Shown here in pieces: positions 7,586 through 10,749 of a stretch of 64,000 nucleotides of DNA. Source of the stretch: Hydrotalea sp. (GTDB lineage Bacteria > Bacteroidota > Bacteroidia > Chitinophagales > Chitinophagaceae); the NCBI GenBank assembly GCA_027364735.1, contig DAHXOT010000017.1, forward strand, positions 186,001 through 250,000. The letters run 5' to 3'. The translations under genes and the position numbers were made by a program. The notes under the pieces are model-generated. The model made no database searches and was not told the DNA's origin. It saw nothing but the letters and a program-made list of their open reading frames with translations. Every line of letters begins with the position of its first letter. Position 1 is the first letter of the stretch.

Positions 7586-7610
7586 TGAATTAGCTGCTGG
7601 CTATTACGTT

Positions 7611-7642
7611 AAAAAAACCTCCAAAATTTTGGAGGTTTTTTT
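7611..7642. terminator. Bidirectional intrinsic terminator, response regulator / ruvB
   Basis: Perfect 32-bp palindrome: A7, stem CCTCC, AAAATTTT centre, GGAGG, T7. It ends both the rightward regulator transcript and the leftward ruvB transcript; the ruvB stop codon overlaps its edge. Confidence 0.92.
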
Positions 7643-8678
7643 AATAATTAAATAAATCATTTTTGGGTGTAATTTTTAATTGTGTTTTTTTAAGATGCTC
7701 GTAAGCTTTAGCAGTTGCTTCTCTTCCTCTGGAGGTTCTTTGTAAAAATCCTTCTTGAATTAAAAAAGGTTCATACACTTCTTCTAAAGTTCCCGATTCT
7801 TCTCCAACTGCAGTGGCAATAGTAGTAATGCCAACAGGGCCACCTTTAAATTTTTCAATGATAGTATATAAAATCTTATTATCCATTTCATCTAATCCAT
7901 GTTCATCTACATTCAATGCTTTTAATGCATGTTGCGTAATACCTATATCAATAATTCCATCGTTAAGCACTTGTGCAAAATCTCTCACTCTTCTTAGTAA
8001 TCCGTTTGCAATACGTGGAGTGCCTCTGCTTCTTCGGGATATTTCTGAGGCAGCATCTGCTGAGATAGAAGTTTTTAAAATATGCGAACTTCTTTCAATA
8101 ATTTTTTTTAAAGTTTCTGCTTTATAATATTCTAAGCGAGATTTAATGCCAAATCGAGAAAGAAGTGGCGCGGTTAATAAGCCGCTTCTGGTTGTAGCAC
8201 CAATTAAAGTAAATTGGTTTAAATTAATTTGTACACTTCTTGCATTAGGCCCACTATCAATCATAATATCAATCCTAAAATCTTCCATAGCAGCATATAA
8301 ATATTCTTCTACAACATTGCTTAGACGATGAATTTCATCTATAAATAAAACATCATTTGGTTCTAAATTGGTAAGTAAACCTGCAAGATCTCCGGGCTTC
8401 TCAATAACTGGTCCACTTGTTTCCTTAATATTTACGCCTAATTCATTGGCAACAATTCGGCTTAAGGTTGTTTTGCCTAATCCGGGAGGTCCATGAAATA
8501 AAATATGATCTAAAGCTTCACCTCTAATTTTTGCAGCTTTTATAAAAATGATGAGGTTCTCAATAATTTGGTTCTGGCCACTAAAATCATTAATTACAGA
8601 AGGGCGTATCGAGTTTTCAAATTCTCTATCGGTTGTATTTAAATTTTCTTTGTTGTTATTTAAATTAGGATTCGGCAT
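7641..8678 (-). CDS. ruvB: RuvB Holliday junction branch-migration ATPase
   Basis: A 345-residue AAA+ motor that, with RuvA, drives branch migration of Holliday junctions. Walker A is GPPGLGKT at 63-70, Walker B is LFIDEIH near 113-119, sensor 1 is in [18 protein letters not shown] (which also carries the arginine finger region), and the C-terminal winged helix contains the [16 protein letters not shown] signature. N-terminal [11 protein letters not shown] matches the usual RuvB opening. ruvA and ruvC are also in this window but not adjacent (36.9 and 20.5 kb). Length is normal. Confidence 0.98.
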
Positions 8679-8798: not shown

Positions 8799-8837
8799 AT
8801 TTTATTTGTATATACAAATAAAATAGTTTTATCTTTG
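8799..8837 (+). promoter_or_regulatory. marR promoter with overlapping 26-bp palindromic operator
   Basis: Bases 8799-8824 form a perfect palindrome with core ATTTGTATATACAAAT. Its left arm supplies TTTG (8805-8808), which lies 21 bases before TATCTTTG (8830-8837); together they fit the Bacteroidota promoter TTTG-N(17-23)-TAnnTTTG. The operator therefore covers the -33 element, as expected for autorepression. The same 16-bp core recurs before the next gene. Confidence 0.8.
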
Positions 8838-8842
8838 TGTTC

Positions 8843-9271
8843 ATGAAAATTTCAGAAAGTAAATATTCCAATTGTTTATATTTTACTGCTAATGCATTGG
8901 CTCGTAAAGTAGAGCGTATTGCAATAGATAGTTGGAAGAGTGTAAATCTTTCGCCGAGTCATGCATATTTATTAATGTTAGTAATTGAAGAGCCTGGTTT
9001 ACAGCCGGGAGTATTATCCGATCAATTACAACTAAAACCTAGTACCATAACGCGTTTAATAGAAAAATTAGAGAAAAAAAAGTTGTTGATAAGAACCATG
9101 GATGGGCGAATAACAAATATCTATCCTACCCCCTCTGGAAAAAATTTATTGCCAAAATTAAAAGAATGTTTAAAACAATTTTATCAAAATTATGTTGAAG
9201 TATTGGGAAAGGAAGAAAGTGTTCGATTGGTTAAAAGTATGCATCAGTTAATTGATAAATTGGAAGGATAA
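8843..9271 (+). CDS. MarR-family transcriptional regulator, OhrR-like cysteines
   Basis: A 142-residue winged-helix regulator starting at ATG 8843 (GTG 8837 is in frame but lies inside the predicted -7 box). The DNA-binding region runs LQPGVLSDQLQLKPSTITRLIEKLEKKKLL with wing RTMDGRITNIYPT. Cys11 sits in YSNCLYFTANALARKV, a position like the redox cysteine of OhrR, and a second Cys109 lies near the C-terminus, similar in spacing to two-Cys OhrR proteins. Palindromic operators before this gene and before 9325 suggest that it represses itself and the downstream redox operon. The inducer is inferred to be an oxidant or electrophile, not shown. Confidence 0.88.
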   Translation: MKISESKYSNCLYFTANALARKVERIAIDSWKSVNLSPSHAYLLMLVIEEPGLQPGVLSDQLQLKPSTITRLIEKLEKKKLLIRTMDGRITNIYPTPSGKNLLPKLKECLKQFYQNYVEVLGKEESVRLVKSMHQLIDKLEG

Positions 9272-9286
9272 TTTTTTCCATTTAAC

Positions 9287-9302
9287 ATTTGTATATACAA
9301 AT
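9287..9302 (+). promoter_or_regulatory. Second MarR operator, upstream of the redox operon
   Basis: Perfect 16-bp palindrome ATTTGTATATACAAAT, identical to the core of the operator before the marR gene, 22 bases upstream of the next start codon and 15 bases after the marR stop. It suggests a separate regulated promoter for the two enzymes. Confidence 0.78.
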
Positions 9303-9324: not shown

Positions 9325-9972
9325 ATGAAAGTAGGAATTATTGGTTCAGGTATAGTAGGTCAGGTTTTGGCCAACGCTTTTAATGCCGAAGGGCATCAGG
9401 TTACTTTAGGTACGCGTAATATTTCTAAAGAGGAACTAATTGCATTTAAAAACAATCACCCAACAATTGCAATTAATAATTTTTCCGATACTGCAAAGAA
9501 TGCCGATTTAATTGTTCTGGCAGTAGCAGGAGCAGTGGCTACCGAAGCTATTCAATTAGCCGGGCATGAACACTTTGCTCATAAAATTGTTATTGATGCT
9601 ACTAACCCAATTGCAGCTGCTCCGCCTGAAAATGGGGTATTAAAGTTCTTTACCGACCTGAATGAAAGCTTAATGGAAAAAATTCAAAAAGAAATTCCGG
9701 ATGCACAGGTAGTAAAAGCATTTAGTTGTGTGGGTAATGCGTTTATGTATCAACCTTCTTTTCCCGATGGAACACCAACTATGTTTATTGCAGGTAATAA
9801 CACCGATGCTAAAAAAGTTGTAACAGATATTTTAATTTCTTTTGGTTGGGAAGTAGAAGATATGGGATTAATGGAAGCGGCACGTGCTATTGAACCTTTG
9901 TGTATTTTATGGTGTTTGCCAGGCTTTACAAAAAATCAATGGACACATGCTTTTAAATTATTGAAATTATAA
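9325..9972 (+). CDS. NAD(P)-binding oxidoreductase, F420-dependent NADP reductase fold
   Basis: A 215-residue protein with an N-terminal Rossmann fold: G7xG9xxG12 in GIIGSGIVGQ and LGTRN at the end of the second strand, where Arg favours NADP(H). The rest matches the pfam03807-type family of NADP oxidoreductases, which in organisms without F420 act as NADPH-dependent reductases of unknown substrate. It lies 53 bases after the marR stop, behind the second operator, and 39 bases before an SDR. A role in detoxifying reactive carbonyls or quinones under MarR control is inference. Confidence 0.82.
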   Translation: MKVGIIGSGIVGQVLANAFNAEGHQVTLGTRNISKEELIAFKNNHPTIAINNFSDTAKNADLIVLAVAGAVATEAIQLAGHEHFAHKIVIDATNPIAAAPPENGVLKFFTDLNESLMEKIQKEIPDAQVVKAFSCVGNAFMYQPSFPDGTPTMFIAGNNTDAKKVVTDILISFGWEVEDMGLMEAARAIEPLCILWCLPGFTKNQWTHAFKLLKL

Positions 9973-10011: not shown

Positions 10012-10749
10012 ATGTCAAAGAAAATTGCACTTATTACAGGTGCCAATAAAGGTATTGGCTTCGAAACTGCAAGGCAGTTAGGTAAAAAAAATATTACGGT
10101 TATTGTTACAGCCCGTAATGCTGATAACGGAAATAAAGCAGTAAAACAATTAAGAGAAGAAAATATTGATGCCGAATTTTTACAATTAGATGTAGATAAT
10201 CCTACGCACATACAACAAGCGTACGATTATATAAATACTAAACATGGCAAATTAGATATTTTAGTGAACAATGCGGGCATTCAAATTGAACATGCTAATT
10301 GGGGTGTTAACACCGCCGAAACTGTTACCGAAAAAGATTTAAGACAAACTTTTGAAACCAATTTTATTAGTGTAATTCTGTTAACTAATACATTGTTACC
10401 GTTGTTAAGAAAAAGTGAAGCAGGCCGCATTGTAAATCTTAGCAGTATTTTAGGTTCACAAACTTTACACAGCGATCCTAAATCGCCTATTTATGCTTCT
10501 AAATTGTTTGCATACGATGCTTCTAAAACAGCATTAAATTCTTATACTATTCATTTAGCTGCAGCTTTAAAGGGTACAAATATTAAAGTTAACTCTGCCC
10601 ATCCGGGTTGGGTAAAAACCGATTTAGGTACCGATGCTGCACCTATGAATGTAATTGATGGTGCTAAAACTTCTGTAGAATTGGCTTTATTGGGCGATGA
10701 AGGCCCATCGGGTAAATATATACATTTGGGTCAGGAACTTCCATGGTAA
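10012..10749 (+). CDS. SDR-family oxidoreductase, carbonyl-reductase-like
   Basis: A 245-residue classical short-chain dehydrogenase/reductase: TGANKGIG cofactor loop at 9-16, NNAG near 86, catalytic Ser in NLSSILG, and YDASK supplying Tyr and Lys. The long insertion between Ser and Tyr (GSQTLHSDPKSPIYASKLFA) is typical of carbonyl-reductase-like SDRs that act as monomers with NADPH. Probably co-transcribed with the upstream NADP-binding reductase and, through the operator, with marR. Substrate not deducible. Confidence 0.88.
   Translation: MSKKIALITGANKGIGFETARQLGKKNITVIVTARNADNGNKAVKQLREENIDAEFLQLDVDNPTHIQQAYDYINTKHGKLDILVNNAGIQIEHANWGVNTAETVTEKDLRQTFETNFISVILLTNTLLPLLRKSEAGRIVNLSSILGSQTLHSDPKSPIYASKLFAYDASKTALNSYTIHLAAALKGTNIKVNSAHPGWVKTDLGTDAAPMNVIDGAKTSVELALLGDEGPSGKYIHLGQELPW

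Follow-up and report, generated by a model that had tools for sequence, protein, structure and literature searches.

How does a repressor that shares a transcript with its target genes get made while those targets stay silent? The question is raised by a locus of Hydrotalea sp. lying in the window, by which we mean the whole 64,000-nucleotide stretch of DNA that was analysed. Here a marR gene is followed in the same direction by genes for an NAD(P)-binding oxidoreductase and a short-chain dehydrogenase (SDR), and the original prediction placed two matching palindromic operators of a small MarR regulon, one before marR and one before the enzyme genes (Table 1). With slightly better than even confidence we propose that MarR represses its own operon, marR-F420_oxidored-like-SDR, with operator 1 blocking initiation and operator 2 most likely acting as a roadblock to the polymerase. 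What comes out of the analysis is an operator motif, together with a regulator subfamily and a set of genes, in a Bacteroidota family; the regulator is found in about a quarter of the genomes sampled from it (39/147).

Table 1. Features of the marR locus, in window coordinates
Feature	Position	Strand	Remarks
ruvB (presumed)	7641-8678	opposite	upstream neighbour of marR
Operator 1, perfect 26-bp palindrome ATTTTATTTGTATATACAAATAAAAT	8799-8824	no strand	conserved core 8804-8819, ATTTGTATATACAAAT
-33 box TTTG	8805-8808	+	within left half-site of operator 1
-7 box TATCTTTG (TAnnTTTG)	8830-8837	+	N21 from TTTG; predicted transcription start about 8842
marR	8843-9271	+	142 aa; MarR_2 (PF12802), winged-helix repressor; Cys11 and Cys109
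T-tract	9272-9277	+	adjoins marR stop; -15 to -10 relative to operator 2
Operator 2, exact 16-bp core copy	9287-9302	no strand	gap between marR and oxidoreductase gene
NAD(P)-binding oxidoreductase, F420_oxidored (PF03807)	9325-9972	+	215 aa
Short-chain dehydrogenase (SDR), adh_short (PF00106)	10012-10749	+	245 aa

The palindromic sites and their association with marR

Both sites were found exactly as predicted, a perfect 26-bp palindrome before marR and a 16-bp copy of its core before the oxidoreductase-SDR pair. While the palindromic sites themselves stood, the length of 26 bp proved to be special to this genome: only about 16-18 positions are conserved across orthologs, and in the congener G037 the 16-mer is kept and the outer arms of the palindrome are not. 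The exact 16-mer occurs twice in the whole genome (2,773,140 bases, 54 contigs), both times at marR, and the core is thus not frequent at random sites, the point on which a genome-wide search had been suggested. When matched loosely, the motif is not rare in the window, since 4 matches at up to 3 mismatches stand against 3.46 expected by chance. Sites with two mismatches were found at 11 further places in the genome as compared to 7 for a reversed-pattern control; 9 of the 11 lie inside predicted ORFs and neither of the 2 intergenic ones is convincing, on which grounds a wider regulon in this genome was rejected.

The family sample comprised 147 genomes, of which 39 (the genome of the window included) carry a clear MarR ortholog at E 1.4e-43 or better, the next-best MarR matches being at E 5.3e-7 and weaker. 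The exact 16-mer is present in 25 copies in 19 of the 147 genomes, all 19 of them ortholog-bearing, and every copy lies beside the marR ortholog; the reversed 16-mer gave 1 copy in the same 147 genomes. Scored as the best match within 130 bases before marR, operator 1 was found at all 39 ortholog loci with at most 3 mismatches (11 exact, 17 with one, 9 with two and 2 with three). Operator 2 was found at 34 of 37 scored loci with at most 2 mismatches (14 exact), and the best match after marR at the other three has 5-6 mismatches. The two unscored loci, G043 and G141, lie at contig ends, and the short stretch after marR in G043, when read directly, contains both operator 2 and the T-tract. The window is A/T-rich and holds other perfect palindromes of 14-36 bp, which would favour taking the two sites for chance A/T-rich palindromes or for sites of another protein. 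Such an explanation is very improbable, as all 25 exact family copies are at this marR and none occurs in the 108 genomes without a strong ortholog, and as none of 2380 control stretches (about 130 bp each, from elsewhere in the same loci) has a site at up to 2 mismatches, with 4 at 3 mismatches. A chance palindrome is excluded by the genome, family and control-stretch counts. The two palindromes are real, far beyond chance, and, judged by where they recur, they are almost certainly the operators of this MarR, as the original prediction of two operators in one MarR regulon had it.

That the regulon is small also agrees with the family counts. Away from marR, sites matching TTTGYATATACAAA in the 147 genomes, counted by eye, were not commoner in the 39 genomes that have the regulator (15 places) than in the 108 that lack it (34 places), and a wider regulon in the relatives was rejected for want of clear enrichment. 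We fetched all 15 of the former and, among the 34, 5 of the 8 palindromic ones (TTTGTATATACAAA); four of these 5 sites lie inside ORFs. Five of the 15 precede or start one recurrent gene and the rest have no common target. In these five marR-bearing relatives (G134, G047, G137, G126 and G072; loci L175, L176, L177, L178 and L181, near locus position 1965-2041) TTTGCATATACAAA lies right at the start of the homologous gene. The site reads TATATTTGCATATACAAA in 4 of the 5, and in 3 of the 5 it is adjoined by a gene which we take to be gyrB-like. The site could be a -7 box common to these genes or mark a further target of MarR.

Beyond the family, 29 places were matched and 27 examined; G343 gave no locus and L173 no readable ORF. 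An N-terminal cysteine is present in the MarR of 17 of the 27 loci and absent from 10, all of them in f24. At the 17 loci with the cysteine, a 12-bp operator core (at most 2 mismatches) precedes marR in 16 and follows it in 11 of the 16 that have DNA there, as against 4 of 256 control stretches. The f24 relatives (L163-L172) have mostly weaker upstream sites, with 1-3 mismatches (5 of 10 at up to 2), and no site at up to 2 mismatches after marR, that is, no second operator; possibly they are a subfamily with another signal. A search of an open-licence literature library did not find TTTGTATATACAAA, though one of the 12-mers does turn up in literature which, by title, concerns Bacillus licheniformis promoters, antibiotic resistance in diabetes and rectal cancer. 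Searches of that library for MarR in Bacteroidetes, Chitinophaga or Flavobacteri, or together with NmrA, returned nothing on this regulator.

The regulator and the genes around it

The product of marR scores 37.1 bits with PF12802 (cut-off 27) and 27.5 bits with PF01047 (cut-off 24.6). Its AlphaFold model has a mean pLDDT of 95.3 and aligns about equally well with many solved MarR structures, the top Z being 16.9 (CouR). The model alignment and the wider searches covered 36 of the 39 orthologs (all except G127, G141 and G136). Cys11 is invariant in all 39 orthologs and Cys109 is found in 36; in the model, Cys11 lies just before the helix 12-30 and Cys109 within the helix 103-121. Because Cys11 is invariant, redox or electrophile sensing by this MarR is likely. 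The only NCBIfam OhrR model to appear, NF052638, gives 30.1 bits, far below its equivalog cut-off of 200.

Upstream of marR, on the opposite strand, lies a gene which we take to be ruvB, and a ruvB-like gene, so named on the same presumption, has this place in 29 of the 39 ortholog loci; the neighbourhood of marR is therefore old. A perfect 36-bp palindrome with poly-A/poly-T arms (7609-7644) separates ruvB from a converging gene, presumably for a response regulator, and is most likely a bidirectional terminator.

Downstream, the oxidoreductase scores below the NpdG equivalog cut-off (TIGR01915, 56 bits vs 149.8), and the solved chains that best match the SDR include plant reductases and NADPH carbonyl reductases. 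The first gene after marR at 35 readable loci is NmrA-like in 27, F420_oxidored-like in 3 (this genus and G055), aldo/keto reductase in 2, one which we presume to be Nth-like in 2 and another in 1, each cluster name resting on one scanned exemplar. The same-strand run after marR also includes F420_oxidored-like genes at 10 loci, SDR at 7, thioredoxin-like at 8, aldo/keto reductase at 5, zinc-type dehydrogenase at 4 and a small protein at 10. At the three loci without operator 2 the next gene is the presumed Nth-like one (G047, G134) or an aldo/keto reductase (G039), but G080 has the same aldo/keto reductase and does carry operator 2. Outside the family, 19 loci were compared with the family gene clusters: F420_oxidored and SDR follow marR in two f13 loci, NmrA-like in two f35 loci, SDR and NmrA-like in f23, F420_oxidored-like in f9, and SDR in two f10 loci and in f59. 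The protein after marR in f2 and f56 we take to be Old Yellow Enzyme-like. None of these enzymes was found at 8 of the 19 loci, two of which (L156, L205) are on short contig ends. The downstream enzymes are of types that would serve against quinones, aldehydes and other electrophiles.

Operator 1 and the promoter of marR

The promoter predicted before marR, TTTG-N21-TAnnTTTG, is present in the window as an exact match to the sigma-A promoter of Bacteroidota (-33 TTTG and -7 TAnnTTTG, about 19-22 bases apart). The TAnnTTTG consensus, at position -12 to -5, is described for Flavobacterium psychrophilum (PMC9723704). All but two of the orthologs (37 of 39, the exceptions being G086 and G059) retain the TTTG in the left half-site of operator 1, and a strict TAnnTTTG follows within 17-23 bases of the TTTG position in 32 of the 39, at exactly N21 in 24 of these; the other 7 have weaker -7 boxes or none. 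Both elements occur together in 30 of the 39, so that across the orthologs the predicted overlap between operator 1 and the -33 box is borne out. Operator 1 would thus cover the -33 box of what is, as far as motifs can tell, the only canonical promoter of the operon. When the F. psychrophilum offset is applied, the predicted leader is 0-5 bases long in 24 of 32 loci and 16-36 in 8, and the marR mRNA is predicted to be usually nearly leaderless, in the window (8838-8843) too. Leaderless mRNAs are reported as 5.5% in F. psychrophilum (PMC9723704).

A T-tract locked to operator 2

Operator 2 presents a different picture. A strict TAnnTTTG was found between -160 and +60 of operator 2 in only 2 of 34 loci and not in the window; the two boxes (G059, G013) overlap operator 2 itself and have no spaced TTTG, and no sigma-A -7 box was found at operator 2 of the window. 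An E. coli-type promoter-like match (10/12) does overlap operator 2 there, though such matches, at 6, are fewer than in shuffles, at 11.0. On the other hand, a run of at least 6 T's at -17 to -7 is present at 33 of 34 operator-2 loci as against 4 of 38 operator-1 loci (G127, at a contig start, was left out), a difference with a Fisher p of 6e-15, in which the relatedness of the loci is not corrected for. In all 32 loci whose stop-to-operator distance is 14-21, the five T's at -14 to -10 are invariant; the columns that separate the T-tract from operator 2 mostly drift, the one exception being an A at -3, kept in 26 of the 32. It is the coding strand that carries the T's (33 of 34 loci; an A-run in none of the 34). 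What is new here, and absent from the original prediction, is an operator 2 which by its motifs is without a canonical promoter box, yet has a T-tract locked to it, and for these two reasons we consider that the two operators probably act differently. A search of the literature, within a limited open library, turned up no account of such an operator with a T-tract next to it.

Several simpler accounts of the T-tract were considered and rejected. A run of at least 6 T's lies within 17 bases of the stop in 33 of 38 marR genes but in 5 of the 237 remaining ORFs at these loci. It is no property of the stop codon, as the T's stay with the operator in 6 loci where the distance is 18-37 instead of 15-17; in G112, for instance, operator 2 is 37 bases past the stop and the T's are still at -15 to -9. 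Nor is it part of MarR recognition, being absent at 34 of 38 operator-1 sites. The stop codon and T-run could not be read as a degenerate -7 box, as the stops are TAA, TGA or TAG and the TA is not kept. An intrinsic terminator after marR was likewise rejected: when the 30 bases before the T-run were folded at 33 loci, none gave a stable hairpin at an MFE of -8 or lower (median -1.2; strongest -6.6, in G130), and none was seen there in a scan of the window.

The T-tract is absent from the three loci without operator 2, and also from G055, where operator 2 overlaps the stop. The composite T-tract/operator pattern was found in 32 of the 147 family genomes. In 31 of them it lies at operator 2 of marR (and in 3 of these at operator 1 as well), G097 alone having it elsewhere; the reversed control gave 0. 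Outside the family the T-tract is present at only 4 of 11 operator-2 loci (f35, two; f56; f9), and hence it is not essential to the circuit.

How the two operators may act

We propose that MarR bound to operator 1 would cover the -33 box and sterically block initiation, and that MarR bound to operator 2 would be a roadblock, at which polymerase that has leaked through marR would halt just past the stop codon. The RNA in the halted polymerase would end in the U-rich copy of the T-tract, and the weak hybrid would favour release, so that a little repressor mRNA would be made without the enzymes. Oxidation or alkylation of Cys11 would probably be what inactivates MarR; both blocks would then fall and the whole operon, whose three genes presumably share one transcript, would be read. 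A more specific form of this proposal, which we put forward tentatively and would hold to fall short of an even chance, is a repressor-gated terminator, composed of T6-9, about 8 bases and a MarR operator, in which the bound repressor takes the hairpin's part and the RNA ends in the U-tract. A single MarR would then govern both the start of transcription, at operator 1, and its premature end, at operator 2, and repressor would be made without enzyme until the signal comes. If so, this would be a protein-gated terminator without an RNA hairpin that can be found by sequence alone, and it would answer the question with which we began.

Some observations speak against a roadblock. A polymerase stopped by a protein is expected to halt about 14 bp before the site, which would put the RNA end at the start of the T-tract and not at its end. 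The A at -3, the two TAnnTTTG boxes and the 10/12 promoter-like match at operator 2 also count against it, and would suit an unorthodox promoter there. So do the operators 2 that have no T-tract, in G055 and in most of the 11 loci outside the family, speak against it. A review does state that a protein roadblock may make polymerase backtrack and terminate, and names Mfd as a major factor where the roadblock is strong (PMC10310618).

In the main competing explanation, operator 2 covers a second, non-canonical promoter of the enzyme genes, the T-tract is its upstream or -33 element, and repression by MarR at either promoter is of the ordinary sort. An arrangement in which each of two sites silences a promoter of its own is the usual one, and it is described for SydR (PMC11633110). 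The strand specificity of the T-tract resembles that of promoter elements, the regions of operator 1 also tend to have A/T runs at a similar distance, and the promoter-like match in the window overlaps operator 2. We nevertheless find a second promoter rather unlikely, given the near absence of strict TAnnTTTG boxes around operator 2 and of any conserved -7-like columns downstream, and given that in 17 of the 32 loci with a readable next gene no more than 25 bases separate operator 2 from the start of that gene, where a -33/-7 pair using the TTTG of the operator has no room.

It is also conceivable, though improbable in our view, that the operon is simply autoregulated, with operator 2 raising the local MarR concentration or looping to operator 1 and the T-tract aiding DNA bending. 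MarR could bridge the two identical sites over their 483 bp, and operator 2 occurs without the T-tract in G055 and in f2, f10 and f23 loci; but bending makes no obvious demand for T over A on the coding strand, nor for the absence of the tract at most operator-1 sites, and MarR dimers are not known to loop DNA. A block to initiation at operator 1 together with a roadblock at operator 2 is the reading that we carry into the comparison below.

Comparison with known systems

In fold, the MarR model resembles OhrR (1z9c; Z 15.7, rmsd 1.9, 134 aligned residues, 22% identity) and SarZ (3hsr; Z 15.1, rmsd 3.3, 132 aligned, 22% identity), both of which, as here, have a cysteine at the start of helix 1; by the OhrR numbering that we assume, Cys11 would lie about 2 residues before the OhrR sensing cysteine in register. 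This offset, and the lack of the cysteine in the 10 f24 relatives, count against our proposal. Unlike OhrR, the targets here would be the F420_oxidored-like and SDR genes at the locus, and in relatives, by their exemplars, NmrA-like, zinc-type dehydrogenase, aldo/keto reductase and thioredoxin-like genes. SydR of Sinorhizobium meliloti is described as a MarR repressor with two identical perfect inverted repeats that controls its own and a target gene (PMC11633110), much as we propose here. Its cysteines C16 (helix 1, sensing) and C114 (helix 5) are 98 residues apart, exactly as are C11 and C109 (PMC11633110). The SydR sites, of another sequence (TATCGCGATA), share the single intergenic region that separates sydR from SMa2023, where two mapped starts lie downstream of them, and the redox response of SydR was demonstrated (PMC11633110), whereas here such a response is predicted. 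In further contrast to SydR, the target here follows in the same direction, there is no canonical second promoter, and a T-tract is present.

In trpRBA of Chlamydia trachomatis, too, an operator separates structural genes from a repressor gene: as described in PMC6504234, the YtgR operator lies between trpR and trpB and ends read-through transcripts. YtgR is presented there as iron-dependent and not the product of trpR, and the 348-bp gap contains an alternative promoter (PMC6504234), whereas the gap here is 53 bp, with no canonical promoter seen. A parallel to the two modes of action is offered by Bacillus subtilis, in which the MarR-type GbsR is described as a roadblock downstream of the start site and OpcR as occluding the -35 region (PMC7396694), the modes which we infer for operators 2 and 1, respectively. 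GbsR and OpcR are two proteins, whereas here both modes would fall to one protein at a single operon, whose proposed roadblock site has a T-tract next to it. The circuit itself is of an ordinary kind, and the T-tract/operator element would be an unusual variant of it, for which we propose a mechanism.
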